From the NCBI GenBank assembly GCA_951230915.1, contig OX579641.1, positions 18,144,254 to 18,208,253 of the forward strand: DNA of 64,000 bases, in the 5' to 3' direction. Under the pieces are notes generated by a model. That model was not told the origin of the DNA and ran no database searches. It was given only the letters and a program-made list of their open reading frames with translations. Shown here piece after piece: positions 11,977 through 38,580 of this stretch. Made by a program: the position numbers and the translations under genes. The DNA is from Antitrichia curtipendula. Lineage: Eukaryota; Streptophyta; Bryopsida; Hypnales; Leucodontaceae. The stretch's first letter is position 1; every line of letters begins with the position of its first letter.

Positions 11977-11984
11977 GATGCACT
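11977..11984. repeat. Target-site duplication of hAT1, left
   Basis: GATGCACT directly precedes the CAGGG end of hAT1 and is repeated exactly at 33221-33228. Eight base pairs is the diagnostic duplication length of the hAT superfamily. Confidence 0.96.
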
Positions 11985-11994
11985 CAGGGTTGAC

Positions 11995-12330
11995 AGGACG
12001 TCCGGTGGACGTGGACGCTGACCCCCGGACGTCTTTTGACATCCCTAGATGGGCCGTCCGATCGGTCGGATTGTCCGCGTAGTCGGGAGGCTCACAGACG
12101 GGATCTCGGAGACGGGCCCTCGGGCGAACAGGGCGTCGGGCGAACAGGGCGTCGGGGGAACAGGGCGTCGGGCTCGCGGACGAGATCGCGCGGTCGGATC
12201 TTGCGGACGGGATCGTGCGGACGTGATTGCGTGGACAGGCACGTGCGGACGGGACGTCCGCACGATCTGCCCGTCCGATTCTGGGCCGTCCGATTTGCCT
12301 GGTCCGCCTTCGGACGCCATAAATAGCGCG
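11995..12330. repeat. hAT1 left subterminal CGGAC/GTCCG island
   Basis: Starting directly inside the TIR, this CpG-rich stretch contains many GTCCG and CGGAC units in both orientations (GGACGTCCG, GGACGTGGACG, GGGCGAACAGGGCGTCG three times). By position it should hold transposase-binding sites. It differs from the hAT2 copy (38185-38580) by indels and CpG changes, although the neighbouring genes are nearly identical. Confidence 0.75.
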
Positions 12331-12600
12331 GCGGACAGCTCATTCCTCACAATCATTTCCCTTGCGGAGTGGGTGATCCAGTGCCTCTCAGTGGCTCTGT
12401 GCACCCCTTTCGTTTTGGTGCGTGAACGATTGTGCTCGGATACTGAATTGCACCAATTTATTTTGGTGATTACTTGGTTTTGAAGGCCTTGTTAACAACT
12501 TCACCTCATTTCATTGGCAAGTGTCAAACATTTTGTTAAGTTGTTCTAAAGATTCATGTGAACTTTGTCATCAAATCATTTCATTTTAATCAAGGTTATC

Positions 12601-13698
12601 ATGCCTCGCAATAGTAGTTCAAGGTCCAGTAACAAAGGCAAATCCCAGGACATGAACTGGGAAGATTGGGCAAATCCAATGTGTGTAGCTGAACCTAGAT
12701 GGGAAGAAGAGCCCAAGAAGGTTTGGGACTGCACAATGTGCAAAAAGTACGTCAAAATGACGCACCTCTCCAAAATGTGGTCACAAGAAAGAGCAGACAA
12801 ACAAGTTCGACGCTGGGAAGGACAAATTTCCACGTGCGAGAGCCAACACTTTGTGCACCGATACGAGGAAGTAACGCGGTGCGCTGAGCTGCCTGATTCC
12901 AAACCAAATGTTATGAATTATTCCAACATAGCCATGGTTTGGGCAGAGATTGTACTCCACAAAGATGTAGACTGGTGCACAATTTACGGGAAAAATGTTG
13001 ACAATATGAAGCGCACTGACGCTGTTATTTATACGAGTTGGACTCAACCGAGCGATTGTATGTGAATGTGGTCCAATCGAGGGCAGTTTGGATTTCCGCC
13101 GATTGTATTGCCGGATGCTGAGGATGAATGGTCGGACGACGATGATGTAGAAGACGATCCAGCACCCATAACATTTACAGTGGGACATGAGCGTCAAGAA
13201 GCTCGGGAAGACATCGAGTTCAATCAACAAATGCAAAAAGCTATGCGTAGAAGCATGGAGGATCGGGGTCAACAACACGGGCATGATAGGTCCTACCAAC
13301 ATGATCGTACTGCATCTGGTTCACAAGATGGTCAAAGGGTCTTACACTACGCTAACAACCCCCAAGGTACTTATTACAACCCAGAAAGAAGCCATCAAAC
13401 CACACATGATTTTGGATCTAGCCAAGGAGGCTCCCAATACTTGTCTGGATCTACTACGGGTGGTTCATATGAGTGTCACACAGGCTCTCGTCATGTTGAA
13501 CCAAGGCAAGGAAGGTTTCAACACCGTGATGTAGTTCCTCCTCCAACTTTTGGAGGTCCTTACTATGGAAATCCCAATCAAGGAGCTACGCCAAGCGACT
13601 ATGGATGCACTTGGGGCGGAGGACCATATCTTGGCACTTATGGATCCAGTTCCACACCACCAAAACGTAGAGATGACATCCATTCAGATTCCGAGTAA
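12601..13698 (+). pseudogene. hAT accessory gene A (low-complexity protein), copy 1, nonsense at 13063
   Basis: The 365-codon frame starts at ATG 12601. The N-terminal part (about residues 1-150) has a WDCTMCKKYVKMTHLSKMW motif and a later CESQHFVHR, which suggests a metal-binding fold. The same module begins the RING gene at the other end of the element. The C-terminal part is acidic (DDDDVEDD), then rich in Gly, Ser, Gln, Tyr and His, and ends in a basic PPKRRDD. A TGA at 13063-13065 interrupts it; hAT2 has CGA at the equivalent site, so this is a C-to-T change at a CpG. I do not recognise the family. A DNA-binding or assembly role is only a guess. Confidence 0.7.
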
Positions 13699-13980
13699 AG
13701 TAGGTAGAGCTATTTTAGTCGTTGTCTCACAATCGAGTGGGCCTTGGAATCATTTGTTATTGGATTATGGAGTGTGGCAATCATAGTACAAACATATCGG
13801 CATCTCGGTGAATAGCATTTACGATTTTACGTACTAAAATATTTTGATGTAAATATATTTTATTAAAATGTATTTGGTCGTTAGTACTTGGTATCATCAT
13901 AGCGATATCGTTCAAGTATCAACTGTATTGCTTTTCAATATAAAAAATATTTGCGTACAATGAAATTCTATTATCATTAT

Positions 13981-14919
13981 CCCCTAATCGTTTTTGACTA
14001 TGTTTTCACCAAAAACGCTCCCAAACTGCCATTTCTAATACTAGTGTCAAATTTCAGAAATAAAACATTCTTGGACGCATGTAACCATAGGATCTTGTAG
14101 TAAACTTGTTTAAGAAGATGTGGAAAAATTTCAGAATTTCCCACCATGTGGATTGCAAGATAATAGTGTTTGAATTGACAAAAATCCTTTTTTTGTCCCT
14201 GCGAAAAAACGGGCAGCTGCCCTTCACAAGGTCACATTCATATGAAAAAATGTCCAAAATGGTGGTTACTCTTTGGATTTATTCTTGAAGGCAAGTTGGC
14301 TACATGCTTGAAAATTTTCAGATCATTTGGAATAGTACAACATATAGGAAAAAAATAGTCAGTAGGAAGAGGTAGAGAATGATTCAAAACACTAAATTGT
14401 GAAGAATTTATTTATGGAATTGAAAAATGCCAATCCAACGGTTGTAATGTTGTAATAAACAATCTACACCCAATGTTTTTATTTTTTTATTTTTTTTCAA
14501 AAATAATGAAAATTGAGTTAAATAAAAGACTTCAAAGTTTATTTTAGAGTTGAAATTCCATAACTACCCTTAAACTAAGAATCCTCATAACTTTTGCCTC
14601 ATAGATCTAAATGAAATGATTCAAAGCTTTCCATGTACATATAAATCTAAAGAACCAATTTCAATTTTTATTTTCTTAAAAAGTGATTATTGAAGAAGTT
14701 TTTTTGCTGCCCGTACTGCCCGCCAAGGACTGAAAACGACATATCATGCAATAACTTTTTAACCATGTAGTCTAAATGTATGAAAATTGTTGGGCCTTAA
14801 AGCTACTCCTCGGGCACGTGTTGTATGAAAATTTCAAAGAAAAAAAATATAAATTTCATTTGTAGTGAGCTGCCCAAAATCGCTATGTTGTCAAAAAAAC
14901 CACTTTGGTCTTTTAGGGG
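13981..14919. mobile_element. TTAT-flanked 939-bp non-autonomous element, copy 2 (in hAT1)
   Basis: It starts CCCCTAATCG and ends CTTTTAGGGG. It is flanked by the direct repeat TTAT (13977-13980 and 14920-14923), which is not palindromic and so confirms a true 4-bp duplication. It is clearly homologous along its length to 10881-11815. The same insertion is present in hAT2, so it preceded the split of the two hAT copies. It is non-coding. The remaining intervals 13699-13976 and 14924-15015 show nothing recognisable. Confidence 0.78.
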
Positions 14920-15015
14920 TTATATGTGTTCAACATTGATTATATAATTTTGAACCCAACCAGACCAAACTAACATCCATCAACAATAATTGTTGCATTG
15001 CACTTCTCATTCAAG

Positions 15016-15498
15016 GATTTCAAGCAAAACATATGATGAATGCATAAATAGATGGTAGACATTGGACATTGGAAGTTTCAAAACACACAAACATTTCAAA
15101 ACTTGAAATGAATTATAAGGGTGCATATATATTGGCATACATTGATGGTGCATATATAAATAGAAAATCCTTGCACACAATCATGCAAATTTATATACTC
15201 GCCTCTACATTTACCTAATACTTTTATAGTTCTATCACTTCTATGTCGTCCAAGCAAAAAGATTTCAAGCAAAACATATGATGAATGCATAAATAGATGG
15301 TAGACATTGGACATTGGAAGTTTCAAAACACACAAACATTTCAAAACTTTATATGAATTATAAGGGTGCATATATATTGGCATACATTGATGGTGCATAT
15401 ATATACTAGAAAATCCTTGCACACAATCATGCAAATTTATGTACTCGCCTCTACATTTAACTAATACTTTTATAGTTCTATCACTTCTATGTCGTCCA
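15016..15498. repeat. Tandem duplication, unit about 245 bp, at the 3' end of the kinase gene
   Basis: Unit 1 begins GATTTCAAGCAAAACATATG at 15016 and unit 2 begins identically at 15261. Both end in CTATGTCGTCCA. The units differ at a few positions. The second unit abuts the stop codon of the kinase-like gene (15514, - strand), so the duplication lies in its 3' untranslated region. The same pair is present in hAT2 (41257-41739). Confidence 0.85.
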
Positions 15499-15513
15499 CT
15501 AACACCATAGACA

Positions 15514-17006
15514 CTAATATGAGTGGCGGAAGTGTTCATCCGGAATAGGCCAGTTGTAATTATTGGTAAATCGATGGATGATTTCGGACAAGCTACCGCG
15601 AGAATCAATCACCGAATCACAAAGGCGCTCCAAGTAAAGGTGAAAAATCCTTGCCAAATCCTCATGGCTAAATCTTGTATGTCCTTCATTTTCCCGATGT
15701 AAGCTCACGTAGTCCGTCGACATGCAACCATTGTTGATGGCTTGAGCTATTCGACCAACCGCATATTCCTCCGATTTACGTGATAAATCCGGTATCATTG
15801 ACACATCCGCATCTCTTCGGTGCAAGTATGCAATAGAAGGGTCCACCCACCACCTCTTTTTCAAGGTCTCAGTCCGCTCACTCTGAGAGGTGAACGTGTA
15901 CAAGGACTTCATTGGTTCATTACGTAAAGTAGTCATGCCCCAATCGCAAACTCCAATGTAAACACGTGACTCATCATTGGGAAAGTGAAACATAATGTTG
16001 TCCAGTGAAAGATCATTGTGCAAATGTCCAGCGCTGTGCACTGCATTCATGAGGTGCACCAGTGCCCATGCAAGCCCTGTGCGCTTCTTCCTCCAACGAC
16101 CAAGAAAAAAAGCTTTGGTCACCTCTTCCGGGGTTGGTTGAGAATAAGCCAACCAAATGCCAATGTTATCGGGATATTCCTTATCCAATTTTAACATTTG
16201 CTTCAATATTCCGCCATTCCACCAATATGAATACCCTTCGTTTTGCGTTGCATGAACAGCAGAAAACCAGATAACTCCATCATGTGGAATTCTCACTGCC
16301 ATTGACTCGTTTTGGTGTTCCAACCTTGCGAGCGGAAGTCGTAAGCATTGTTGATGAGATACCTTCCCTGCAAACTCCCAAAATGTGGGTATCTCACGAC
16401 ATCCTTCAATTCGGACCTTCCGAATTGTTGCGTATCCACCCCTCAGGATTTGATCATCTTGTGGATTCACCCTTACTGTTTCCGGAAGCGCTAAGAGATG
16501 TCGTCGCCCACGTTGCAACTCCACAACTCCCTCATCACTATTCCACCAACCCATTGAACCTCGCCTATTTTGATTCTTTGCAAAAGGGGCGCACTGGCGA
16601 ACAAACAAGTCTGCCCTCAAAATGACCTATTCAAAAGCGCCATCACCTACACGGTGTTGCTTCCCGTACTTCTCTAAGATCAGTAGATCACCTTTGCATT
16701 CCACAATGCATCATGGACCTTGTTCTTCAAAAATTGTTGCAAGCCCTTCTTCTCCATTTCATGAATCCAGTAGGGTACGTTTAAAGCATCCGTGAACTTC
16801 TGTGCCATATCTCCCTTGAATTTAGCTGGGCACTCATCTTCATACCTCGCATATTTGGTATACAACGATGCAGTGGTTTCCGACTCATAAAATTTGACAA
16901 TGCACTCAATGAGAAATGCTTTGCAAGCAAGAGAGGGAGCGTCCATACTCACCTCACTGTCCGGCTTCACTCGTTTGTCCTTTGCAGCCTTCTTTGATCT
17001 CGGCAT
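15514..17006 (-). CDS. Transposon-borne protein kinase-like gene (hAT1)
   Basis: Two exons are inferred: 17006-16692 (105 codons from MPRSKKAAKDKRV) and 16626-15514, joined in phase 0 over a 65-bp GT-AG intron, giving about 475 aa. The kinase fold is recognisable. There is a glycine-poor P-loop (LRGGYATIRKV), a candidate ATP lysine (FAGKV), a catalytic loop HNDLSLDN near residue 309 that keeps Asp and Asn, and CDWG in place of DFG near 330. The N-terminal region is basic and unrecognised. There is no signal peptide or membrane segment, so a nuclear or cytosolic enzyme is likely. Both hAT copies carry it unbroken and apparently identical. If the intron is not spliced, the first exon would end alone at 16680. 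Confidence 0.75.
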
Positions 17007-17209
17007 CGTGATGAAATCACGTTTAGAAGTGCACTTGCAATTTGTAATCCACAAGGCAATATACAATATGCCAAATGATCATACACGAAATGTAGAAAAA
17101 AAAGCAACAAGTATCCCCTAGAAATCACACTCTTATCTTCCCTTAGAAAGGAGCCAATGGAGGATAAACCACCAAGCTCTCCGCTCTCTCTTGCATGACA
17201 CAAGGGGGA

Positions 17210-17695
17210 AAATAAAAGTGAGGAGCGGATGGGCCGTCCGACTCTTTTATGCAAGGCGGACGCCTCGACCGTCCGCCTGATCGGACGGACCCGACGAGGT
17301 GGACGGATCATCGTCCGCCTCGTCAGGACCGTCCGATCAGGCGGACGCCACCTGTCCGACACATCGGACGGCCCCGATGAATCGGACGGCCGCCGTTCGC
17401 TCTGGGCCGTTCGACCCTAAAATCGAAGGCGGACGCCTCGCCCGTCCGCCTGATCGGGCGGACGAGACGACGCGGACGGACAGTCGTCCGCATCGTAAGG
17501 ACCGTCCGATCAGGTGGACGCCGCCCGTTCGACTCATTGGACGACCCTGATGTATCAGACAGCTGCCGTCCGCCCAGGGCCGTCTGACCTGGGCAATCCG
17601 CCTGATCGGACAGCTCCTCTCAAGTGGAGATCAAACTAAGAGATTTTTCGAGGTCGTCCGACCAGGCGGACGGCTGCATCATCTGACTCCTAAAA
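17210..17695. repeat. Internal CGGAC/GTCCG island 2 (hAT1)
   Basis: This is a CpG-rich array of GTCCG/CGGAC units in both orientations (CGTCCGCCTGATCGGACGG and variants repeated) upstream of the kinase gene. It resembles the subterminal islands. The hAT2 copy (43455-43915) differs by a missing block and many CpG transitions. It could be a promoter, a binding array, or the old end of a nested element. Confidence 0.7.
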
Positions 17696-17699
17696 CGAC

Positions 17700-19900
17700 C
17701 TCGACCAGCAAATAATGACAAGGATGGGAAAGACAAAAATCTCATCGACATTCACTTTCTTACTTAAAGAACTTGAATCATTAAATAGAACTCCAGCGTT
17801 TTTTAATGCAAAGATCTTCAATTTTATACACTAAGTCCTACATCCTAAACCCTATACCCTAAATCCTATACCCTAAACCCTATACCCTAAAACCTAAATC
17901 CTAAATTGTACTCTAAAGTTACAAATGTAAGAAATCATAACTAATTAAAAATATGAAAACAAATGCAAATTAAGTTCCTCAAGAAATATATAGACCATCT
18001 TCAATTAAGAACTTAACTTGAGGATTCTTGATTGGGTTTAGGTGTTTCTTGAATTCATAGCACGCACAAGTTCGCAAATAAAGCTTTGAAGTCAATTTTT
18101 TAATTTCTTATGTGAATATATTTTGTTAAACAAATTCAACAATAGACTTTTTATGTAACTTTATCAACACCATTGTCCCACATTAGTTGAATGAATTTAT
18201 ACCTCAAAGAATTCACCAATGTGCAATTGTGCATGGAATTTAAAAATTAAATGTTTACTTCTCTAGCTTTTCTAAATTGGGATGTTTGGTCATTCAACCC
18301 TTTGAGGAATATTCACGTACGTCTTTCACCTTGTGCATTTTAGCCAAAATTTAGGCAATTGAGTTATGAATAAATGATTAAATGTAAAATGTTTAATCCC
18401 TACTTTTTAGGCACCTTGGCACCTTGCTTAACTACATTTTTTTGCAATGAACCTTTTTAACTAAAAAAGGCTACTCTAGTGATGGTGAATGTTTAATTTT
18501 ATATGATAAACAATTGAGTTGAGAATCTAAAAATAAGATTTTAAAAAAGAAACACTTAGTTTTCACTCATTAAAAAATTGTTAGGTAGAAGTAGATTCAA
18601 GATCGAAGGAAAAATTAAATCATTAATGGCTCTAAGATAGTAAGATAGAATTGAAATATACTAATTTCCACTCTGAGATTATTCTAGCAAGGAATGTAGA
18701 CCTCATGAATTTTTTTTTTTGATTTTAACTCTTAGAATTCAATTCAAAAATGAATACTTCAAGTTATTTATTCTAAAAGATACCAAAAAAACTCAGAAAA
18801 TTACAAAAAATATTGAGGCCATAGGAGCCTGCCTAAAAATCTTACATCCATTTTGTCCCCCGATGGAACAATGGGACTTTAGAGAATTAGAGGTTAAACT
18901 CAAAAGAACTATACATTCATTTTTTAAAATTTGTGAAGTAGAAATTGATGCACTATTAAATGAAAAATAATACGCTAATAACTTTTGGAAGAATTGAAGA
19001 ATTGTTAATCCCAATGAAAAAAATATTCTAATAGACAATTAATATTCTTTGATATCAATTTTGAATAAAGAACTTTGAATTCTAGAGACATAAAACAACT
19101 CTATATGCTTTTTCTAACCTCATGATCCGCACTCCGCAAGACCGCAAGTCCGCAACATATAAGTTATATAACTCCAAATGATTTTTGACAACATTATTTG
19201 ACATTGAATGGGGCAATTTCTTATAAGTAGGTAATTACTAATTAGGTATCAATCTATACTATCATGACCAAAATGATTTTTTAATATTACATCAAAATAT
19301 TATCACACATCCATTTTCAAAATACACTTCTAATTTGGACAACATTTATATGAATGACATGAACCCGCAATCCTAAATCCTAAATCCTATATTAGAACTT
19401 TGCATACAAATATCTTAGAAGATCGTGACTTTGATGCAATAGTATTATATAAGTACATAGCAATTGTTTTTAGTTTCATGACATTAAGTCGGATTTGGCT
19501 TACTTCGACAAATTTCTTCATAAAACAATTATTTTAAAATTGAGATGTCTTACAATATATAGTAATATATGATTAAAATCCAAATAAATTTTTGAATATA
19601 ATTAAATCTACGATCTATCATCAAAAGTTTAGAAAAAAAAATTTAGAACTATAGGTAGCATTTCATTTTGATCTTTCAAGATGGTCATTTCAAAATATCA
19701 TTGAGATGTTTAATTTCAAGATTGCACCTAAAAATATGATGTGCACATTGAAGAATGAAGTTTGATGTCGGTGCCATGAGGAGTTCAATGTCTTTGAAGT
19801 ATTCACATTGGATGCTTGTTGTCATGAAGGCACACTCTTTGGAGATGACCTGGCCATTTCAAGAATCCTATGCTGCACTAAATGAGAAAAAAAACATGCA
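17700..19900. other. AT-rich non-coding spacer module of hAT1
   Basis: About 2.2 kb of strongly AT-rich DNA separates the kinase and transposase modules. It holds degenerate telomere-like units (17839-17899). A short open frame at 18719-18970 encodes 83 residues including CLKILHPFCPPMEQWDF; it has no known relative and is open in hAT2 too, but this is weak evidence. Nothing else is recognised. The equivalent is 43930-46115. Confidence 0.5.
17839..17899. repeat. Degenerate telomere-like CCCTAAA repeats
   Basis: The stretch alternates CCTAAACCCTATACCCTAAA units, close to the plant telomere repeat TTTAGGG read on the opposite strand. hAT2 has one unit fewer near 44060-44105. It is interstitial and short, so it is not a chromosome end. 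Confidence 0.65.
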
Positions 19901-19904
19901 CTGC

Positions 19905-20125
19905 CATGGTCCGATGGGTGGTCGGACCGTCCGCCCGTCGGACGGAGGTGACCAAGGCACGGACGAGCCACCAGGCGGACGGGCGGTCGGACCGTCCGCC
20001 CGTCGGACGGCGGTGACCAAGGCACGGACGGGCGGTCGGACCTTCCGCCCATCGGACGGATGTGACCAAGGCGCGGACGGGCCACGAGGCGAACGGGCGG
20101 ACGGGCGGACAGACGGTCTTCGCTA
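19905..20125. repeat. Internal CGGAC/GTCCG island 3 (hAT1)
   Basis: About three repeats of a unit like GGTCGGACCGTCCGCCCGTCGGACGG...GTGACCAAGGC, spaced roughly 55-60 bp, lie just downstream of the transposase gene. The unit contains an internal palindrome (CGGACCGTCCG). It is present with few changes in hAT2 (46118-46335). Confidence 0.7.
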
Positions 20126-20286
20126 GTTTTAAGGTATTTGAAAAAATAAAATTTTGATGGTGTGCACAACATGAATGAGCAAATTTGTATTACAAACTTA
20201 AAGTTCGAACAATGAATTGTCATAACATAATGTGTTTAGGGGAATAAACTAAACACCCAAGTTTACATCTTCTCAATCTTTATAAA

Positions 20287-23200
20287 CTATGGTTGATAGT
20301 CACTATCTCCTTTGACTTCAGCCCCGCTACTATGACCTGTTGTATCCCATCCGGAATCATCGTCACTGGATGAATTTTGCATACTATCTGATGAAGATTG
20401 TACAATCTTCCCTCCTTCTTCTTGTACTTGTTTCGATGTGCTTGATCTCACTGGTCTACCTAACTTATGATCCCTTTTGACTTTTAGTAGAGACTTTCCA
20501 ATACCTTCCTTAAGATCGTGGATTGGTTTCACCTTTCGCTTGGTTAGAGGCAGACTTGCATCAAGGGAGGTTCTACCTACATTTTGTTTTTTCAATGGAG
20601 AGATTGCAAAAGGCTCCATTATTCTTTTCCTCTTAGCTTTTTTGGACTTCTTCACCGCGGATGGACGTGCTTCCGAACCTCCTGGAATGTTGTTTTCTTT
20701 GCAGACAAAGCTTCCACTGTAGGGTTTGAAAATTTGATCGGAGAATGCTTTGCATGGCTAGAAAATCGACGAAACATAGACTCCAATGTTTGCACATCAT
20801 CGTTGTCTGATGAAACGGATGGATTGGGATTGGCTCCAGTATGCAATTCCTTCAAATTGCTCAAATGTTGTTCTTTGAACCGTGAGTCTCCAGGACCATT
20901 CAAAGTCGTGCTACCGCTTGTATATAGTACATGTCGAGGACCGCTACGTGATGGTAATTGAGGATCTCCCACGAGGTGCTTCATGTCTTTGGCGTTGCGG
21001 TGTGGCATTGGGCACACGGACTCCAATACACATGGATCTTGACTTCCCTCTATTCGAGGTGCTTAGGCATTTTGAATGCCGAAAAGTCCAATAGTTTCAC
21101 TTGTCAATGCCCTTGGTAATTCAGTATTTTGGTTGATCACATTTGTGTGGGACTTCACCCCACACTCTCTCATGTCTTCGTGTTGATCATTTTCTTCCGC
21201 TCCTACCGTTGTCATGGATGGACACTCGGGAATTCGAATCACTTCATCCATTTGGGGAGTTTCATCACCTATAACCATTTCTTTTTCTTCCTCCGCTACC
21301 TTCGCATGAGTATTTTCCCTATTTGCTAGAATGTTTTCAATATGCAACAACCCGGTTCCATCTAAGTATTTAGCTATGGAAGGTCCACCTTCGTCATATT
21401 CACAGTCGTCCTCATCCAACGGAAACTTGTAAGGGTCTTCACAATGATCTCCGATGTTTGCATCATAATGAGGTGGGCTTCGAAGCGGTTCATCATCAAA
21501 ATTGCGGATGCCGTGGTCATCTTCATCGTCCATGAGGGGATCAACTTCTTCACCGGATTCACCACCCTCGTCTTCCGATGAAGACAAGGCCGAATCCTCC
21601 GACTGGAGGTTCTCATCGTACCACTTCTTCTCGTCATTTTGCTTTGATGCACCGAGGACTTTGGAATTGGTATACACATATACCAAATCTTGTGCTCTTT
21701 GTGGCTTCAACTTGTTCCGATATTTGTTGTGAACAAAAGAATAGCTACTCCAATTTCGTTCACATGAAGACGATGATACCGGTTGGGCCAAAATTCTCTT
21801 GGCAATTGGAGCAATGAGCTTCCGCACGCGCCTTCAAAATCCCACCAAGCATGCGCCGACAATTGTTGTTCACCTGGATCCAACATGTTGTGAAACGGAG
21901 GTTCCCTATGGCGGAAGGCTACAAATTCCTTCACCACCTTTGCGTACTCTAATGGTGTACATATTTGCATCAAAACGTGCTTGCATGCAGCCATGGCATC
22001 GGTGTCGTCGGCTAATTCTTTGTCTTCAAGAAGGTAGGGATTCAAAAGTGCTCCTGCATAATGTAAATTGGTCTTCACCATATCAAGTCATTCGTAGAAC
22101 GCCTTCACCAACGGGATGGCTTTATCCAAAGCCAAACAAAAACGCTCTTTGTCTAAAGCAAGGACGTGCTTCTCTAGTTTCCTCATAATATGTAACACCT
22201 TGCCCATGCATGGTGTCTTCGCATCCAAATCACGAAGAGCATTGACAATTGGAGCTATCACATCTTCAAAATTTTGACAACGATGCCAAAAATGCCCACT
22301 TAGAATGGTCTTCTTTACCCGTTTGGATTCTAAACGAGTTTTGGATTTTCGCGAGTGTTTTCTAGCATATTCCTCCCATTGCGGGTCCGTCACAGTTTGT
22401 TGCAATTGTGCTTTCACCTTGAGCATACGTGCAACCGTGTTGTAATTCGAGGCAAATCTTGTTTCCACCGCCAACAACAAGTTGTACTGCGTCGAATATT
22501 TCCGAAATATTGCAAGCGGCATGTGCCTCTTCTTGAAGAATTTGACTATTTTTCGAGAATCTTTCACGACGTCATCAATCCATTGTTCGTTTGCCCAATC
22601 TTTTAGCAACAAATTCAAGGCATGCACCACGCAACCTTGGAAAAAAATGTGGAGATAGGTAGTAGATACCAAACTCTATGCTGCTGGATTTATAGCCGCA
22701 TTATCTGTACTCACCTGCACTACGTTTGCAGGGCCCACTTGTTCTATAAAACTCTCTAATATAGAAGCCAAATATGGAGCATCTTTAGTTTTCCCAGTTG
22801 TATCCACCGATCCTAGGAATTGCTCACCCGCGGATGACACAAGCATGGCATTTATCAATGGCCGATTCGAAACCGAGGTCCACCTATCAATAGACAATGT
22901 GGCTCTAAACTTCCTAATACTGGTTTCTGTCCGCTTACGGAGATTGACCTCTAAGTCTACCTTTGCTTGGTCAAGCAATTTATGACGTAGATCATGGTAT
23001 GATGGTGGGCTATAAGGTTGGTGAAACTCCGCCGTTTTCTTCACTGCTTCTTTGAAGGCTGGATTTCGGGCTACAGCAAATGGTATGTTTGCCGCATAAA
23101 AGAAATTGGCCCATATTGCATTCAAAATGCGTTTATTTGCTTTGTCGAATCCTTCTACTAGCCTACTCTGTCTTTGAGGCCTACTGCTTGATGTCCGCTG

Positions 23201-23602
23201 AGTTCCACGTCCACCTGATGCTTGTGTACTTGGATTTCCTTGGGAAGAACCACCAACATATTCCTCTGGTGCCGTGCATGAGTCTTCTTTGATAGAGTTC
23301 ATAGTGTCTCTCGCATTTGACATAGCACGAACAACCATAGGCATAGGTGTGTCGTTGCCATCCACATTGTGTGGAGTACCTCTTTGTGAAATCACTCCAT
23401 TGCAACGAACAAATAGACCTCGAACTTCAGATGTCATTTGAGTCCAAAGGTTGATTCCTTTGTCACGACTCCCCGATGTGCCTGCATATCCCAAATGACT
23501 AAACATACGGACCGGCTTCTTGGCAAATACCAATTTGCAAGCCTTGCATTGTACTTTTCCATTTGATAGGGTTTCGTACCAAAAAGACCAATCCTTGGTC
23601 AT
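20287..23602 (-). pseudogene. hAT transposase (BED, DUF659, hAT dimerisation), broken, hAT1
   Basis: It starts at ATG 23602. A BED-type finger (WSFWYETL...VQCKACKLVF...HLGYAG) is followed by a Ser/Gly/Gln-rich linker. DUF659 comes next (LSIDRWTSVSNRPLIN, FLGSVDTTGKTKDA, VVQVSTDNAAIN). Then comes the RNase H-like middle (CVVHALNLLLKDW, ETRFASNYN, LHYAGALLNP), then the C-terminal dimerisation motif (HAWWDFEG / KLIAPIAKRILAQPVSSSSCERNWS) and an acidic then basic tail (MKKSKKAKRKR). Lesions: in-frame TAG at 22673-22675, TGA at 22088-22090, a one-base-type frameshift near 21828, a stop at 21063, and a frame change near 20655. hAT2 shares all of these. It is not expected to make full-length transposase unless some breaks are unrecognised introns. 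Confidence 0.88.
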
Positions 23603-23879
23603 GGTGGCTGTTTTAGGCTCTGTGTATTGAAACCCTAAATTCAAAACATAATGATAACAATTGGGTAAAATTGTTCAAATGTTTATGCACAAAGCCTTGG
23701 AAAACAAGGCCCCCCTTTCCACTGAACTATGCATTACCAAGCAAGGGACACAACAAATTGCAGCGCCTAGCCCTTGGAAATCTTAACGTTCAGTTTTTTA
23801 GGAGTGTTTGCAAATGTCAATTTCAGGATTCTTATAGTCTTCATCTGTATGTGACCGTTGAATATGGAAAAATAAAAAT

Positions 23880-24136
23880 CCTCCCACAACGGTCAGGCAG
23901 ACGGCTAGCTGGGCCGTCGGAACAACGGACGGCGGACGGAAATCTGGTTCGTCCGAACAGCGGACGGGCGGATGGCGGATGGGAAACTAAGCTGTCGGAT
24001 CAGCGGACGGGCGGACGGGAATCTGGTCCGTCCGAACAGCGGAGGGGCGGACGGCGGATGGGCGGACGGGAATCTGGGCCGTCGGTTTAGCGGACGGGCG
24101 GACGAGAATCTGGGCCATCGGATCAACGGATGAGTG
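23880..24136. repeat. Internal CGGAC/GTCCG island 4 (hAT1), left part
   Basis: Repeats of about 50 bp with GGACGGGCGGACGGGAATCTGG(G/T)CCGTC lie upstream of the transposase. In hAT1 the array is interrupted by the 4.45-kb insertion and resumes at 28589. In hAT2 it is continuous (50100-50425). Confidence 0.72.
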
Positions 24137-24639
24137 GTCGGTGTGGGCGCCAGATTACCCACCCTTGGTAATCGGGCGAACACCGACCAGGTTCTATGCC
24201 TTTATCCACCTTTTGAATATATGGGGGTTTTGTGAGCGCGGTCCACTGTGCCTTCCAAGCAATGGATCTTTTTGTGCTAACGTTTTCTAAGTGTTGTGGA
24301 TGGCAACGAATACTATTAGAAATGCATGGGTAATTAACAAGCTGACTGTGATGATCAAAGGTGATGGTAATTCCTACCCCCCTCACTACCTATCTTATGT
24401 CTAGGGTTGGCTGGGTAGTTGGCGTCATTTCTAACGTCCCTAACTATGTGAGCGGGGAACCCTTACGTTCCTTCCATGAGTGTTCAAGACTATATTTGGA
24501 GATTTGACACTTCTCTCGGGAGCTTTAACCCTACGGCTAATCCTAAGCTTAGTCTTTAGTCTAGTCTCTAACTTCTAATTGTAACTCTAGATTTTTGACT
24601 CTATGGTTGAATTTGTTTACCTTTGGATTTTTTTATTCC

Positions 24640-25035
24640 TGAGTAAATTAGCTCTAAATTCTACCTCTAAATTAACTCTAGGCTTTTACTCCTAAATTTA
24701 ACCCCAAAATTTTACTCCTAAATTTAACTCTAAGATTTACTCCTAATATTGAACTCCTAAATTGAACTCCAAAATTTACCCCTAAATTTAACTCCAAAAG
24801 TTATCCCTAAATTTAACTCTAAGTTTTACTTCCCACGCTAACTCTAAATTTTAACTTCTATCTAAAATTTATTCCTAAATTTAACTCTAAAATTACTCCT
24901 AAATTTAACTCTAAAATTTACTCCTAACTTTAACTCTAAAATTACTCCTAAATTTAACTCTAAAAGTTATCCCTAAATTTAACTCTAAGTTTTACTTCCC
25001 ACGCTAACTCTAAATTTTAACTTCTATCTAATTTT
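24640..25035. repeat. Degenerate tandem array, AAATTTAACTCTAAA type
   Basis: There are about 15 loosely conserved units of 20-27 bp with the core CTCCTAAATTTAACTCTAAA. A 60-bp-plus block ending CTAACTCTAAATTTTAACTTC is itself duplicated (near 24799-24862 and 24967-25030). It is non-coding. Confidence 0.7.
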
Positions 25036-25904
25036 TATCTTTTCTTATCACGGTGTACTTTTCACGTGGAAAGGGCTAATTAAGGAGATCAATGCTAAAG
25101 AAGAAAAAACACAACACTAAGTATGGATTCAAGAACTCACCTCGTCACTTTCGGTGTCGGAAATACGCTCGTCCGCATTCGTGCGTATATTCCCATACTC
25201 GATGGTGGCCCTTGGGTGGTGGGACCTTTCCCAATTTCACCACTTATGTTTCGAAAATTAGGACCCATGCAATCTAACTTCTTTCTTTCCCTCCTCTTTT
25301 CTTCTCTCTCCTTTTCTTTCCCTTTCTCTCTTTCTACACTAACACTATTCTATCTAAGCTTTGATGGGTGTCTTACAACTATAGATTCAAACCCCAAGAA
25401 GGTTTAATGTTCCTCCTACTCTCTTACACAACCTTGTCTTCGTGTCATCCTAATCCTACCTCCTAATGGTCACTATGAATTCTCGAGATTTCCCTTCTAA
25501 CACCTATTTAGCTAAGCCTAGGGCACTATTTATTGTCTCTCTCCCCTTTCTCCTATTTAATTCTATGACTCACTAACCTCCCTCCATTGTGTGTAGGTGT
25601 GATTTTGGTGAGAGTTGAGAGTTGTTTGATGCAGGTATGGAGGTGCTACTTATCCTTTCCTCCCCCTTCCCTTTTTGATTTTAGACCCTAATCTCTACCC
25701 CAATCCCTACTTAGCAATAGGTCAACCCCCCATTCTCTTTTGTTTTATTTAGCTCGTCTTTGTTTTGTCCTAGTGTGAGAGAAACAAAAAAAAATCAGAA
25801 AAAAAAGGAGTCCAGAAATGGGGACCGAGCTGGGGCCCCAACTACCTGCCTAACCAAGCCTGGCCTCCCGGCTGGCTGGCTAGCTGCTGGGGGGTCGGTC
25901 TGTG

Positions 25905-26045
25905 ATTTCTGATGATGTGACCTGGTCTGTTTGGTTCTCGACTTGATCTGGTCTGTTCTGGCTCTCAACTTAATCTGGTCTGTTTTGGTTCTTGACTGAT
26001 CTGGTCTGTTTGGTTCTCGACTGATCTGGTCTGTTCTGGCTCTGG
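25905..26045. repeat. Tandem array, GATCTGGTCTGTT(T/C)TGG unit
   Basis: There are about five units of roughly 28-35 bp, alternating TCTGTTTGGTTCTCGACT and TCTGTTCTGGCTCTC. It is a minisatellite-like array inside the private insertion. Confidence 0.75.
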
Positions 26046-26094
26046 ACCTTGACTACTTAAGGGAAAAAACTGGGTTTTTTGGCAAACTGGATTT

Positions 26095-26295
26095 TTGGTG
26101 AACTAAAGGAAAATACTTGGGGAAAATAGGACTTGAGGGAAATAGGACTTGGGGATTATAAGACTTGGGAAAAATAGGACTTGAGGGAAATAGGACTTGA
26201 GGGAAATAGGACTTGAGGGAAATAGGACTTGAGGAACATAAGACTTGGAAAAAATAGGACTTGAGGGAAATAGGACTTGGGGAACACTAGACTCA
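26095..26295. repeat. Tandem array, GGAAATAGGACTTGAG unit
   Basis: About ten units of 16-20 bp with the core AATAGGACTTGAGGG lie in a row, with minor variation. It is non-coding. Confidence 0.8.
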
Positions 26296-26494
26296 CTAGA
26301 AACTTAGGGGACAACTAGACACACTAAAAATTGGGGAACACGGAGACTCACTAAACACTTGGGGAACAACTAAACTAAGAGAACTTTGGGATTAGCTAAA
26401 CTTCACTAAATGCACGGGAACCTACATATCTTGGAAGCTAAACTCTGGAGGTTTCCACAAAGGTTTTGGAAACTAGACTTTGGAACAAAACACG

Positions 26495-26870
26495 GGGGAA
26501 GTGCAAAGCTTTGCCGTTAAGTTGGTTTTAACACCAACTTTAGGACTCCTTGACACCTCGGGAGTTCAAAGCTCCGCCGTCTACACTTTTAACACATGCT
26601 TTAGGACTTCAACTTTGTCACTAGTTCAAAGTTTCGCCGTTTCCAAAGGGGGTCTACACATTGGGAGAGACTTTAGAAGAGGAAAAAACTAGACTTTTAA
26701 AGACGAAAACATACACAGGGTCAAAGCTTCGCCGTCCCGGAAGGGGGTCTACTCAACAAGGAGAAGATTAGAAGAGGGTTGGGATAACTTTTAGAAAACA
26801 TGCACAAAAGAAGTTCAAAGCTTCACTGTCCCGGAGGGGGGTCCACTCAACAAAGAGAAGGTTAGAAGAG
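26495..26870. repeat. Spaced repeats with GTTCAAAGCTTCGCCGT core
   Basis: Five copies of the core recur near 26500, 26566, 26624, 26719 and 26813. The last two are followed by CCCGGA(A/G)GGGGGTC and ACTCAACAA(G/A)GAGAAG. Spacing is about 60-95 bp. There is no coding signal. The rest of the insertion (26870-28588) shows nothing beyond a palindrome at 27731-27753. Confidence 0.65.
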
Positions 26871-28588
26871 GGTGTAAGAAAAAACACAAAGAGAAAACAC
26901 ACAAGTTAAGCCACGTGGCAATACAACGCTCATACGCTAAAGGACCCCCAAAGCGGCATCGCCAAGGTACGATAGGGGGTGACTTTAGGATTAGTACAAG
27001 ATACAAAGAAGACTCTTAAAACTTCACAAGTTAGACCACAACACATACAAGAGAGAGAGAGGGAAGCTCTCCACTTACAACAAGGTACCAAAAAATTCAC
27101 AAAAGAGTACACAAAGCAAGGTAAAAGGATCTCCAAGGACCTTCAAAGCTTGAAAATAAGCAACAATGGAGCCAAAAGTGCTCCAAAAACATCGTAGAGG
27201 TTTCTTAGCTAAAACGCCAAAAATCCCAACATAAGTTGGACCCACGGACCCAAAACAAGATTTGGGGGTAATACAAGTATTGGGGGTGTTCTTGAGAGAA
27301 AAATGGGGACCTTAAATAGGTTTTCAAGGCCCCACCTTCCCCTCAAGAGTTCTAAAGTAACCTTATCAACTTGGATTTTCATCCTCATCTTCAAAGATTT
27401 TCATCCTAATCCCTAAAAAACTACTTTTACCTATCTACGCTGGACCAACCTCCTAACTTTTGGGGAATTATTCCAATTGTCAAACGGATTGCGCCATTGG
27501 CTCCAGATCGCCGTGTTTAGTCTAAGACTTCCCTACCCCCCGTACCGAGGACAAAAACCATCGTAGGCTAATTTAGTTTTAAAAACTAAACCGTGGTAAA
27601 ATCCTAGATATTGGGGGTCTTCTATTTTGAGAAATGTAAATAGCTTAGGGTCTCCGGTAGGTGTGAGGGAGTCGGAAAAGACTCTTGGTTGACTTCGTTC
27701 CGCCGTCGTATGGTCCCGGAATGCCGGTCAACGTGGCGGGGACCCCGCCACGTGATTAATTCTTGAGGAATCTCGCCGGTTCGGGTACTTGCTGCTATCG
27801 GAATATCACAAAACTTCACGGAGTGCATTATTAACATAAAACAAGCTAGTCTAATTTTTAGTGAGATTTTCTGGCAACCTGGGTAATTTCCATGAAATTC
27901 CTGTTGGAGGTTACCAGAGTTGACCACCCGCAAAAGGTTCTTCTGCAGGTCGGAAGATGACGGGTTTTTTCACAGGACCTCTCATGGGGTCACATGAAAG
28001 ATGTGCAGGTGCGTTTCCGTACCTGGCACAATTGGTCAGTGGAGATGAATTGGTCATCTCCTTGAGTTTATCGATGATGCGGGAATCTTTTGCAGATAGG
28101 GGAATCTTGGCGAATCGATTTTGTCGTTGGACTCCTGGCATGGGATTTACCCTAGGACACCATCCTTGGGCTGTGGATTCCTCCACGGGCCCGGTCTTGC
28201 GTTAGTGGTTCCTACATGTTAACAATCGGGGTTTTTGTGTATTTCTAAACCTAATTCTAGGACCCGACCTAGTGGCCTCGTTGTGGATCCTTCGGACCGA
28301 CTTAGCCATGAATTGCCACATTTATGGTGGGGTTTAGCCCTTTTGGGCCTATCTGACTTGAATCCTACAAATCCACCCGTTTCGTTCTTTCTACCTATTT
28401 TTGGGCCCGGTTTGGTGGGATTCTAAGTCTAAACACAAATCTAGACCAAATACTATAATGAGTATGTTACAACCCTATTTTGGTTCTACACTCTTTTTAT
28501 GGCTTTTTGTATATTTTTCTTAACTTTAAATTGCAAATTTCCAAAAAAATAATTCTACGAGTCCTAAGTGACAAATTGAGAGCTCACA

Positions 28589-28680
28589 GTTGGCGGACGG
28601 GAATCTGGGCCGTCGGTTCAGCAGATGGCGGACGGGCGAACGGGCCGACCTAAAACCTGTCGGGCAGACAGGCCTTTTTT
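28589..28680. repeat. CGGAC/GTCCG island 4 (hAT1), right remnant
   Basis: This is the continuation of the island interrupted at 24141, with units like GGCGGACGGGAATCTGGGCCGTCGG. From about 28640 rightward it aligns with hAT2 at 50400 onward. Confidence 0.65.
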
Positions 28681-29071
28681 ACAATTTTGGTAAGATGTTT
28701 GAAGTGTGCAGACAGGCGGACAAGTGGATTAGGCGAATAGAAATGTATGTGCAAATGAAAATGGGTGATTTGTAGGCATGGGGTTATAGAAGATAACATA
28801 ACAATAACTTGAAATGATCTTGTACAAATGTACAATAGGTATGATCTTCTGCAATAGGTACGCAAAAAAAACATATTTGACAAATAAAGAAGGAAAAATT
28901 TACCATTAAGAAAAAACAAATCCAAACATATTTGTATTGCATAAATATTTATACATCAATTAAAAGCAACTCATGACATACCATGAGTGTTGTGCATTAC
29001 TAATATTGAATCCTCATGAGATTCAAATAAGTACAAAACAAATTTCATTGGTTAACCCCCTAATACAAACA

Positions 29072-32000
29072 CTATTTTACATCATCGCTACCGTTTGCGG
29101 AAATATGAGAGGCACCCTCTTGTTCCTTAAGTCTTCGACTTGCTCTACGAGTTTGAAGACCACCCGACCCGGAGCCTGTGCCCCCTCCTGATTGGACTTC
29201 CATGTCCACGGCGATGAATTGTCGTTTGGTTTCTGGAGAGTAGTCATCTTCGTCTTCCATCTTCCGTTTATTTTTCCTTGTGGGAGACAAATCTACTTCC
29301 TCTGCCTTTAACGCTCTCAAAGCCGAATAAATCTTTTCTATCATAGCATTTACCGTTTTGTCATCATCTCGAGGGGTCAACGAGATCGCTTGCCCTGTGC
29401 CATGTAGAAAAGTCCTCCACGTCGTTATAATGTCGGTGATCCTCTTATCAAATACATTTGCCACCTCCACGAGTGCATGCTCTGTGCTTGATAGCCCATC
29501 TACATTAAAAGCAGCACGAACTTGCGCAGCTTCTTCCAATTTTGATAAGAAGAGGGCCCTCCCTATTAAACTGTGATTGTATGCTCCGTACTGCTCATTG
29601 AACTCTTGGGATGGTTGCACTTCTATCCAGACGCCATCTTCTCCTGTCCGCACTTCTTTTTCAGGAAATCGGAAGAACTTTTGATGTGAGATGCTCTAGT
29701 GTCCCCCCATGCTACGACAAAACAATTCTCGAGCCTCCAAGTCATCAATACCCCTAGCCCGCAACTCCACTTCTCTATTGCGCATCATCCAGTCAAAGTC
29801 ATCCAATTCGTCATTGTAGTTCTCACAAACATCATGCATGAGTTTTTCCGCATTCCAAATTAGAGGTCGCCCCCAATGAATATAATTTTGGAATAGAAAT
29901 GGCTTTTGGTCAAGTGGAAGGGTCCATCGATTGTGTTCGTGGCTAGGAGGCATGCTCTCCTCGTGCCCAACCATTTCGTAAAACCTAGGGCTCAAAGGAG
30001 AACGACACTCGGGACAAACCGAACGAACAAGGGATGATTTCACCATGCACGTGATATGGTAAGTGTGGCGACATTGGCCCATGATTAAGGCGCCCTCGAG
30101 ACCAAAATGATTTAGACAAAGGCTGCATTTACCCTCCAATAGTTCCGTATTTGAACTTTCACCATGCACTACGATCTTGTCCGCCTCTTTGATGTGCGCT
30201 GAATGCGTGTTGTAAGGGGCCCAACCTTCTTCTACTTCCAAGGTCCAATTCATGGACTTTGACGCAATCTTCTGCGCGTCATTCAGTCGCTCAAACATTG
30301 CCGACATGTCCCCTCAATATGTGACGTCAATTGAACCCCTATGATGTACCTCAAACATCCTTCTAATAGATAGGAGGTCAGAGGAAATGGCATCGCATTG
30401 CTCCTTCGACTTCATGGCTAATTTGAGAAGCCCCTTCATTGCTCGGATTACTACAGACGGTTTGTCTTGTAGTTTTTGAACCCACGTCAACCAACGAGTG
30501 TCGGAACTGCTCTTTGGCAAGCATTTATCTAGCTCCACTACTTGCATCATTTTCTGATATTGTGCCTCCAAATAGACGTTTTGTTGAGTTACCAACTCTA
30601 GTTCATGCTTCACCTCTTCAAACTCGTGGCCTTCCGTTTGCATGGACGCGTCTTGGAATGTGGGAGGAGGATTATCCATGGCGGTTTCGGATATTACTTC
30701 CTTTTGGTTGTTTTCTTCAACCGCTTCTATACGCACGGCTCCGCCGGTCTTTGGAAGAACATATCCCCTGTCCTTCAAATTCTTTTGCTTGAGTGCTACA
30801 ATTTCGTACTCCAATTTCTCAATCAATTCCCTTTGAGCAACTAGAGTGTCATATTGGCAATCCTATGCGTTCGCAAATCTTTCATAATTAGCGCACACTC
30901 CTTTAAATGCATCCTTCAATTGCTTGTGGTCTTCTTTCAATTTCTCCTGCTCTATCTTCAAGGCCTTGTATTTCTCATTCTCTTCAGCAAAGATGAGCAG
31001 CTTGCGATTATTTTCGACCCGCTCCTCCAATAATGGTTTCATAGACGTGACGAAATTCCAAAACAACAAGGCACCTTCCACCAATTTGGGCCCGGATTTG
31101 GTAAATTCCTGAGCAACTTCCATAAGTTTGGGGGCAATGCTAGCTACAAATTGAGCTGTAATCGACAATCTTTTTGAGGTGATCACAAAATTGGGCCATT
31201 CATCACTGTATTCGGCGAAGGGATTACTCGGTCCGGCCTTGTTTGCGGTTTCAGTCAAGCCCGCCTTGTTTGCGGGGTTATTAGGACCGGCCTTATTTGT
31301 CTCAATTACTTGCTTTGATTGAAGAGAGATGTCTTGTTGATGTGCTCTAAACAAATAAGAAGCTTCCAACAAGCTTTCCAATTCACTCACCATTGGCAAA
31401 TGATAAAGATCCTCCAATTGTGCCGTATTTTGAGTTGACAAATGCAGATAGCTCTTATCCAATGGGTTGTCATCAATGGACACATTTTGCGCCATGCCAT
31501 CGAGTTGCTTTCCATTTTTTGGCAACATCTGCCCTTCAACTCTTGGGCTCGATACGGGGCCCAACATGGAGCTTGATACGGGGCCCAATATGGTGCCCAA
31601 TACGGGGCTCGATATGGGACCCAATAGGGTGTCCAATACGGGGCTCGATATGGGGCCCAATACGGGACTCAATACGGGGCTCGGTGTGGTTGGCAAGTCT
31701 TGATTGCAAGGTACTTGTGTCATAAAATTCGTAGCATCGCTCGCTATGATATTATCAATTGATGCAATGGCCCTTGCCATTTGTTCGGGACGAACCTCTT
31801 CCCGATGTTTTTGTGGTGCAGACGGGGTCACCGGTTCCTCCTTCACGGGCCGCATGCTTGAAGCACCACTTTGTTCACCCACTGATGTAAAATTGCGTGT
31901 GCATATCCAATCCGCCCGAGGAGTTGAAAACACCTCTCCGTCAACACCTTCCACCGTGGCATTTGACATTGTAGTTGGAATCTTTGTAGAATCCAAATGT

Positions 32001-32596
32001 ACTCCAATATTTCCCCCCTCCATGATCTCTTTTTTAACCTGCATTAAAGCATGTTTTTGTCGCTTCTGTGATTTTGGTGCCTCACTTGGACTTGCCTTTG
32101 GATCATACAAATCGGGAATATCTTTTTGCCCTTTTGTAAGCAAAAGCGGAGCCGTAGTTGTCGTTGGATATGTGCTCCAGTCCACCTTTCGAGCCAATAT
32201 GAGCTCAGCATACACCATAGAGGCCACGCTGTAGTTTATGAGACCCTTACTCATTGATTTGTCCCCGAAGAGGGCCCGCCAAACCTCAAGTGATCGATGG
32301 ACAAAATGTCCATCCTTGCAATTCGATGGCTTGCAACAGAACCCTTGTGTGTGAATAATGTGGAACTCACGAGGCCACAACTTGTCGATGTGATACATTT
32401 TCACATATCTTTTGCAGATTTTGGAGGTCCAATAAGTTTCTTCCTCCTTCTCCCATTCGCTCTCCGCTTTGATATTTGGATCATCTAAAATGTCCCAGTG
32501 AAGCTCGTGGGCAGTCCCCTTTGATTTTGTCTTCCCGCTCTTGCCACTTCTTGAAGTCATCGCTACAGTACCCTTGCTCGTACCTTCCGTTGTCAT
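29072..32596 (-). pseudogene. hAT accessory gene B: coiled-coil and RING-H2 protein with three in-frame stops
   Basis: This is one reading frame of about 1175 codons from ATG 32596, broken only by TAG 30863-30865, TGA 30314-30316 and TAG 29696-29698. There is no frameshift in 3.5 kb. Order of parts: a basic N-terminus; the module shared with gene A (ICKRYVKMYHIDKLWPRE ... CKDGHFVHRS); a repeat of SPVLGPISSPVLG type; an NKAGPNNPANKAG repeat; coiled coils on both sides of the first stop; a RING-H2 finger (CSLC...CRHTYHITC...CPEC, nt about 30000-30135); and a C-terminal region with DLSPTRKNKRKMEDED and a Gly-rich tail. A RING-H2 finger suggests E3 ubiquitin ligase activity; the target is unknown. 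All three stops could come from CAG or CGA by C-to-T change. Confidence 0.78.
31540..31700 (-). repeat. Coding minisatellite in accessory gene B
   Basis: Units of 15-30 bp with the core GATACGGGGCCCAA(C/T)A recur about nine times. They encode repeats such as SPVLGPIS in the gene B frame. Such an array is prone to length change. Confidence 0.75.
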
Positions 32597-32734
32597 GACT
32601 GACGACAAGTGATATCAAAAAATAATTGACCTCACTCTCCACCCGTATAGGAGCAACCAGCACAATGAAGCAACGGTTGTAACGTCCGACACGGGTTCCA
32701 CCTCTAAATGGAGAGAAGAAGTGAGGAAGAATGG

Positions 32735-33210
32735 AAGGGCCGTCCGCCTTTATACCCGTCCGCCACCAAACCTAAAGTAGGTCCGGCGGCGGACGCCCTC
32801 CCAAACCTCCCGAAGCGGACTCGGTCGTCCGATTAATCGGACGAACCTACTATCCGCTCGATCGGACGGTCTGGCCGTTCGCTGGATCGAGCGGCCAGAC
32901 CGTCCCCTGGTTCGAACGGACGGTCTGACCGTCTGATCGAGCGGACGGATGGATTGTCCACTGGATCGGGCGGGTGGATCGTCCGATCAATTGGACGATC
33001 TGACCGTCCACTTGATCGGACGGTCGGATCATCCGAGTCGAATCGTCCATCGGCCGACCGCCGTCCGCCTGTCCGCCCTGTCTGCCCGTCCGATGGTCTG
33101 CGTCCATCGGTAGGTGGCCACTACGTCCGATGCGTCCGCAACAGCGTCCGCGGACGCTGCGTCCAGACGTCCGGTTTTTGGATGTGATTTGCCCCCGGAC
33201 ATTCCAATTC
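32735..33210. repeat. hAT1 right subterminal CGGAC/GTCCG island
   Basis: This is a CpG-rich array (GATCGGACGGTC, GATCGAGCGGACGG and relatives) running up to the right TIR. It mirrors the character, though not the exact sequence, of the left subterminal island. Accessory gene B starts just inside it. Confidence 0.75.
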
Positions 33211-33220
33211 GTCAACCCTG

Positions 33221-33228
33221 GATGCACT
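33221..33228. repeat. Target-site duplication of hAT1, right
   Basis: GATGCACT, an exact match to 11977-11984, follows the GTCAACCCTG end. Confidence 0.96.
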
Positions 33229-38174: not shown

Positions 38175-38184
38175 CAGGGTTGAC

Positions 38185-38580
38185 AGGACGTCCGCGTCCA
38201 CGTCTGGCGGACGTGGACGCTGACCCCCGGACGTCTTTTGACATCCCTAGACGGGCCGTTCGAACGTCAGTGGACGATCGGTCGGCCCGTCCGCGCGCTC
38301 GGATCGACCCCGCGGTCGGGCCGTCCGATCGGTCGGATCGTCCGCGCGGTCGGGAGGCTCGCGGACGGCCCTTGGGCGGACAGGGCGGACGGCGGACGGA
38401 CGCGATCGAGCGGACGGATCTTGCGGACGGGATCGTGCGGACGGGATTGCGTGGACAGGCACGTGCGGACGGGACGTCCGCACGATCTGCCCGTCCGATT
38501 CTGGGCCGTCCGATTCGCACGTCCGCGTTCGCATTGCCTGGTCCGCCTTCGGACGCCATAAATAGCGCGGCGGACGGCTC
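38185..38580. repeat. hAT2 left subterminal CGGAC/GTCCG island
   Basis: This is the same kind of island as 11995-12330 but longer. It has a different arrangement of GTCCGCGCGGTCGG-like units and extra blocks such as GCGTCCACGTCTGGC next to the TIR. Confidence 0.75.

Follow-up and report, generated by a model that had tools for sequence, protein, structure and literature searches.

The window analysed here, a stretch of 64,000 nucleotides (C9:18144254-18208253 of a 400-Mb genome that is probably a plant's), contains two copies of a DNA transposon of the hAT type, E1 (11985..33220, + strand) and E2 (38175..51341, + strand). It is almost certain that this transposon is a multicopy element, about 16 kb long, in which four genes are carried together as a unit, namely gene A, a kinase gene, the hAT transposase gene and gene B, which has an N-terminal domain in common with A and in addition a RING-H2 domain. 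Overall, the best explanation of this arrangement is an accessory-gene hAT whose cargo controls the element itself, an explanation that we place slightly short of an even chance.

The limits of E1 were verified at both positions proposed in an earlier, sequence-only reading of the window. The 10-bp terminal inverted repeats, CAGGGTTGAC at 11985..11994 (+) and at 33211..33220 (-), are perfect, as is the 8-bp target duplication GATGCACT (11977..11984 on the left and 33221..33228 on the right). Joining the flanks over one GATGCACT restores the empty site, across which a Tnp2-type frame runs continuously (...LLDPMHCEKNLCENLLRTLLG). Hence, the whole E1 segment is a single insertion into a CACTA transposase gene. 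The 10-bp end is by itself without significance (5 matches with at most one mismatch versus 4.4 expected), and the case for E1 rests jointly on the ends, the duplications, the empty site and the copies found elsewhere in the genome.

Eight left-end loci were read: E1, E2 and the six next-best left-end matches. Five of these are complete, with lengths of 21236, 16825, 15937, 16233 and 16298 bp, and all five are flanked by perfect 8-bp duplications (GATGCACT, GTTATATT, CCCTTAGG, TCTGTAAT and TACTTGAT). The four complete copies other than E1 show at most one change per 10-bp end. The genes follow one another in identical order and orientation in all five: A (+), kinase (-), transposase (-) and B (-). 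The element has thus moved by a transposition process that creates 8-bp duplications, and the dispersed insertions with their duplications show past movement only. The co-occurrence of ends, transposase and cargo in dispersed copies, and in one order, strongly supports the earlier proposal of a family of accessory-gene hAT elements. The description of the element as a giant of 21.2 kb is correct for E1 but not for the family. E2 has no counterpart of a 4.45-kb segment of E1 (24142..28592), whose longest wholly internal stop-to-stop frame is 115 amino acids, and the other four complete copies measure 15.9-16.8 kb, so that 21.2 kb was rejected as the typical size.

The three remaining loci are incomplete. 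E2 starts at 38175 with the same left end as E1 in different flanking DNA, and from that position onward it matches E1 at 97.7% over 12.2 kb. It is cut off at 51341, and the end of a CACTA (EnSpm) element, CACTACAAAGAAAC, stands at 51342. The CACTA sequence that interrupts it (51342-64000) is an inverted repeat of positions 1-7039, the two stretches being 99.8% identical, and the right end of E2 was not reached within the 45.9 kb read. In the window, only a fragment of B is therefore present in E2 (50870..51341, -). The locus C8_11.99p is lost beyond a kinase remnant, and C7_1.7p is interrupted within the transposase, its right end not being reached in 30 kb.

Whether cargo and ends travel together had been set beforehand as the test of such a family. 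We scored the best 40 of 285 genome matches to the left end, the best 40 of 396 to the right end, the best 87 of 1384 to the kinase, the best 128 of 1306 to the transposase and the best 41 of 2526 to B; positives and copy numbers are consequently lower bounds and absences mean nothing. The left-end list had 41 rows, from which one 36-base piece was dropped. From the 68 rows for B, 27 further pieces were dropped, and the other 41 were sorted by hand into 12 of the present type and 29 of a sister type that is described below. Among the matches listed, cargo, transposase and ends do travel together. For 58 of the 87 kinases, a listed transposase lies no more than 25 kb away with the expected side and strand, in 51 of these 58 cases at 5.3-7.5 kb; the wrong-side control gave 1 and the opposite-strand control, also up to 25 kb, gave 4. 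Of the 128 transposases, 79 have one or more of the other listed parts in place. Of the 40 left ends, 18 are accompanied by a listed kinase of opposite strand, +3186 to +3544 bp away, and of the 12 B genes of this type, six are accompanied by one 3.7-9.0 kb downstream on the same strand. Within 60 kb of the 40 right ends, a listed kinase was present in 14 cases and a listed left end in nine; no listed left end lies closer than 5 kb to any of the 40.

For the 69 kinases that have no listed left end, the predicted 901 bp were checked for the first 20 by rank. Sixteen of them contain a left end that has one mismatch or none, and in 12 it is perfect; one of the 16 (L044) is oddly placed and doubtful. 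Four of the 20 kinases have no left end at the predicted place, a point against our explanation. In the 6 kb read beside these four and beside L044, one of the four proved to have a perfect left end 2.9 kb away together with gene A, two have gene A and no end, and the fourth lacks both over the 6 kb; at L044, gene A is present together with an end that has one mismatch. On the opposite side of the element, a right end (at most one mismatch) lies about 0.5-0.7 kb upstream of seven of nine B genes (1.2 kb read for nine of the 12 of this type).

The transposase gene of E1 (20287..23602, -) encodes DUF659 (PF04937, E = 6.3e-22), a hAT dimerisation domain (Dimer_Tnp_hAT, PF05699, E = 2.8e-08) and a long C-terminal tail, and the N-terminal part of the protein is zinc-finger-like. 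The gene is broken by three stops and by frameshifts, and the E2 gene (46500..49815, -) has identical lesions, the two copies being identical over 20025-23872. The sequence-only reading had spoken of a transposase remnant, which is accurate for both window copies but not for the genomic copy C2_51.9m, where the gene is a single uninterrupted, intron-free frame of 1104 codons. The tail of the C2_51.9m protein corresponds to window positions 20287-20757, a piece that gave no Pfam match at E ≤ 0.01. The uninterrupted frame holds the motifs SIDGWTS, STDNAA and CERNWS, which we take to be the D, D and E positions of the hAT catalytic core. Judged from its sequence, with the domains, the core motifs, the 8-bp duplications and the short inverted ends all present, the element belongs to the hAT superfamily.

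The kinase gene of E1 (15514..17006, -; 491-amino-acid type) is broken by a frameshift at about 16685 and by a TAG that precedes VILRADLF, and the N-terminal part of the protein sits in another frame. The E2 gene (41755..43247, -) has the same lesions. Sixty-six relatives were found, the full-length ones being about 490 amino acids long. The match of the window protein to the Pfam kinase model is weak (E = 0.0013), yet the model matches 11 of 12 family members, and all 32 aligned proteins have the same residues of the K, E, HND, N and DWG type, presumably of the catalytic kind. A sequence search of the PDB with the cargo kinase gave nothing useful. Its predicted structure (mean predicted local distance difference test score, pLDDT, 84) retrieved 1774 PDB chains with Foldseek at E ≤ 0.001; the best 50 are all kinases, with modest template modelling (TM) scores. 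Within the genome, 30 of the 87 scored kinases are free of stops.

Gene A lies at 12601..13698 (+) in E1 and at 38840..39937 (+) in E2 and encodes the shared N-terminal domain. In E2 it is an open frame of 365 amino acids; E1 has a TGA at 13063, a codon that is open in E2. Gene B of E1 (29072..32596, -) is a single frame of some 1175 codons that contains three stops (TAG at 30865, TGA at 30316 and TAG at 29698), in which the shared domain is combined with the RING-H2 domain. The possibility that the RING is a gene of its own was ruled out by this single frame and by four relatives of 1120-1249 amino acids that read across; the fifth of the five B relatives has a later start and 653 amino acids. 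The RING gene and one member of the shared-domain pair of the original description are hence a single gene, and the cargo amounts to three genes. The N-terminal domains of A and B are 37% identical (E = 1e-19; profile probability 99.75%). The predicted structure of this domain has a pLDDT of 87, and fold searches gave no PDB match at E ≤ 0.001.

We also considered where the cargo came from and how its genes are to be read. Gene A has 55 relatives, none of them carrying an organism name, and the only relative of the cargo with a plant name is a kinase of the moss Ceratodon purpureus (50%). A kinase relative at 64% (P0004) is located on a 2.9-kb contig labelled as a Bacilli metagenome bin, which speaks for a bacterial origin; we take this contig for putative misbinned plant DNA. 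Otherwise, an origin of the cargo in viruses or bacteria was unsupported: no relatives were found in viral contigs, and the GTDB genomes gave one match only, in Tritonibacter (31% over 46 residues), which reflects kinases in general. We rejected the idea that an altered genetic code causes the in-frame stops, since ordinary codons stand at the compared stops in relatives or in other copies.

The noncoding parts of the element contain dense arrays of a short motif. Counting CGGACG or its complement, we found 72 hexamers in E1, where 4.4 are expected (the maximum in 200 simulations was 11), 62 in E2 and seven in the remaining 29.6 kb of the window. In E1, 68 of the 72 fall in five clusters, which are located at the left end 5' of A (11999..12316, 11 hexamers), 5' of the kinase gene (17235..17672, 18 hexamers), 3' of the transposase gene (19928..20103, 10 hexamers), 5' of the transposase gene (23926..24104, 11 hexamers) and at the right end 5' of B (32683..33173, 18 hexamers). 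The other four complete copies have clusters at matching places with varying counts, except that C5_32.8m has none 3' of the transposase. The arrays are also rich in CpG (observed/expected 1.25-1.43 versus 0.84 for the whole element), which is partly explained by their own repeat unit.

Such arrays could be plain subterminal repeats that bind the transposase. In a rival explanation built on this, the cargo would aid transposition, with A, B and the kinase acting as transpososome or target-site factors. Arrays that occupy the two ends and flank the transposase gene on either side fit this explanation, and subterminal repeats are reported, in an abstract on Kat1, to be important to a hAT transposase. 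It accounts less well for the interior array 5' of the kinase gene, and E1, E2 and C2_51.9m have a broken kinase in common, with one stop present in all three. Furthermore, other hAT elements, to our knowledge, move without cargo genes of this kind. We consider it unlikely that the cargo serves transposition in this manner.

Dense motif arrays in noncoding regions, here the CGGACG clusters, are also a feature of the VANC system of VANDAL transposons. VANC, the closest parallel that has been demonstrated, is reported to bind short motifs that are tandemly arrayed in VANDAL noncoding parts, with loss of methylation and derepression (PMC5735166). Like VANDAL (VANC/VANB, KIU/ULP), the present element is a multigene plant DNA transposon with accessory genes and motif arrays in its noncoding parts, but VANDAL belongs to the Mutator superfamily and the transposase here is of the hAT type (PMC5735166, PMC13317346). 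Anti-silencing has been demonstrated for VANDAL, whereas here it would follow by analogy (PMC5735166). The scanned parts of A, the kinase and B (two of four pieces in the case of B) gave no Pfam match to VANA, VANB, VANC or ULP.

We propose that the element's own hAT transposase would cut and paste the element and that the arrays would be recognised by the transposase, by A and B, or by both. A and B may bind the arrays, or the chromatin there, via their common N-terminal domain. Through its RING, B would then direct ubiquitylation at the transposase or at bound repressors, while the kinase would tune the targets of B, the net effect being an element that is kept expressed and mobile, or one that is limited. 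A part of phosphorylation or ubiquitylation in such control, which the sequence-only reading had already suggested, is proposed here from the domain content and the motif arrays. The cargo probably acts on the element's own control and not on the host. A role in anti-silencing in particular, suggested by the likeness to VANDAL, is plausible at somewhat less than even weight. The most specific form of this proposal is a self-encoded ubiquitin/phosphorylation anti-silencing system unrelated to VANC or TET, in which the paralogues A and B (one of them E3-like) would recognise the arrays of ends and promoters and, together with the kinase, would inactivate or remove silencing factors or time transposition. 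We put this form forward as a possibility only, and a clearly tentative one.

The cargo might instead act on the host, for instance by affecting immunity, growth or transmission. Many host targets would be within reach of a kinase and a RING protein, and kinases free of stops do exist in the genome. On the other hand, the arrays tie the cargo genes to the sequence of the ends and of the transposase upstream region, and action on the host appears very unlikely to us.

The association of B, array and transposase extends to a sister family. Its B is 54% identical to P0122 and has a frame of 1104 codons. In five of five near-identical copies read (of the 29 sister-type rows), 14-18 hexamers lie upstream of it, and the 1.2 kb upstream read in these five copies contained no CAGGGTTGAC with at most one mismatch. 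The one sister copy that was read further has B, then an array of 11 hexamers located 5' of the transposase, and then the transposase itself, which is 57% identical to that of the present element. This family was recorded at C4:30997856-31006322 (L055, L069), with B, CGGACG arrays and that transposase in the same order. Outside the right end of C5_32.8m (L016, L017), an A/B-type domain and a kinase (42% to P0047), both diverged, lie less than 6 kb apart, and no transposase of this hAT family was seen near this pair. A cargo pair, related but diverged, is thus found outside the element; perhaps it is a second, older module.

Several findings weigh against a cargo that controls the element. The ratios of amino-acid-changing to silent differences among the genome copies are 0.70 for A, 0.68 for the kinase, 0.60 for the transposase and 0.52 for B, and these values (0.52-0.70) are not clearly different from those of shifted-frame controls (0.52-0.89). 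E2, which is identical to E1 in the kinase and the transposase, was for that reason excluded from the pairs of these two genes, and C7_1.7p probably lifts the kinase mean through misaligned sequence. Since the real frames are not clearly below the controls, the ratios do not point to selection on the cargo among the copies of this genome and were rejected as proof of it. The copies in this genome mainly reflect decay after insertion. None of the copies read has four intact genes together, each having a broken one, and the kinase stop common to E1, E2 and C2_51.9m means that a kinase-dead lineage still spread, unless it was helped in trans. In the sister family, neither a kinase nor A turned up over 4.9 kb past the transposase in the one copy read, and none of the 29 sister-type B rows has a listed kinase in place among the matches listed. 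Finally, as no solved relative of the A/B domain was found, DNA binding by this domain is a guess.

The lack of clear constraint relative to the shifted frames, the decay of some gene in every copy read and the spread of kinase-dead copies would all be expected if host genes had been captured once, by an ancestral hAT, and the resulting composite had been amplified with a cargo that has no role. However, in other sequence sources long frames persist in relatives of A, the kinase and B that are 34-69% identical along most of their length, a divergence at which neutral cargo should have lost its frames. Stop-free kinases make up the fraction given above among the best 87 of 1384 matches. The A relative P0071 and the B relative P0123 come from the same source and both have a longest contig of 17,649 bp, which we take as one and the same contig. 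B also stays beside transposase and array in the sister family in spite of the divergence of the transposase. A cargo without a role is therefore disfavoured, and we regard it as distinctly unlikely.

With respect to known elements, the inverted ends of Ac start with CAGGG, and Ac is not known to encode anything beyond its transposase. The present element resembles Ac/Ds and other single-gene hATs in its hAT domains, its short ends starting with CAGGG, its 8-bp duplications and its subterminal repeats. Ac is 4.6 kb long (PMC3260210), whereas the element described here has four genes in about 16 kb. Puccinia hAT7, likewise a hAT element with an accessory gene, carries a TET gene thought to counter silencing (PMC12730594). 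Its accessory product is a TET/JBP dioxygenase and its duplications are of 7 bp, as opposed to a kinase, a RING protein with its paralogue and 8-bp duplications in a plant-like genome (PMC12730594). ToxhAT/ToxTA is another cargo-carrying class II element, of 14 kb; it is likely of the Tc1/mariner type, has a TA duplication, is single-copy and is non-autonomous according to its authors (PMC12506042). Pack-MULEs hold gene fragments and depend on transposase in trans (PMC6431247); the present element shares with Pack-type elements host-like genes between transposon ends but differs in that long genes and the transposase form a conserved unit. Pack-type capture of host gene fragments without a transposase was rejected, as transposase and long cargo genes lie inside the element.

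The terms "hAT" and "kinase" are absent from the main text of a 2026 review of plant gene capture (PMC13317346) and of a 2019 review of giant eukaryotic transposons (PMC6431247). No description of this hAT element was found in the titles and abstract openings of the open-licence literature. Accessory genes in hATs are already on record (TET in Puccinia hAT7), and the present cargo set is found nowhere in print within that scope. Plant DNA transposons are usually pictured as depending on transposase alone, and VANDAL and the fungal TET elements are published exceptions through which transposon counter-defence came under study. An element that carries three cargo genes as a unit suggests machinery of its own for the control of movement or silencing. 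If true, this would be a second, unrelated solution to counter-silencing, and one that is directly testable, with a motif common to promoters and ends. The domain shared by A and B would be a new protein domain to study.

Some further features of the window were recorded. The CACTA frame at 61491-62162 has a weak match to a NIF-type phosphatase (Pfam E = 0.0026, below the Pfam cut-off), and a frame near C5_32.8m resembles it when judged by eye; the CACTA elements here may, like the hAT, carry an accessory gene. An element of about 940 bp with CCCCTAA...TTAGGGG ends and TTAA/TTAT duplications is present just outside E1 (10872-11818) and again inside it (13972-14922). The differences between E1 and E2 are unevenly spread: 24 differing sites occur in the first 500 bp, no substitutions over 14335-16982, and one plus single-base gaps over 17858-23872, a patchwork that looks like gene conversion. 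Degenerate telomere-like CCCTAAA repeats are found inside E1 at 17840-17900.

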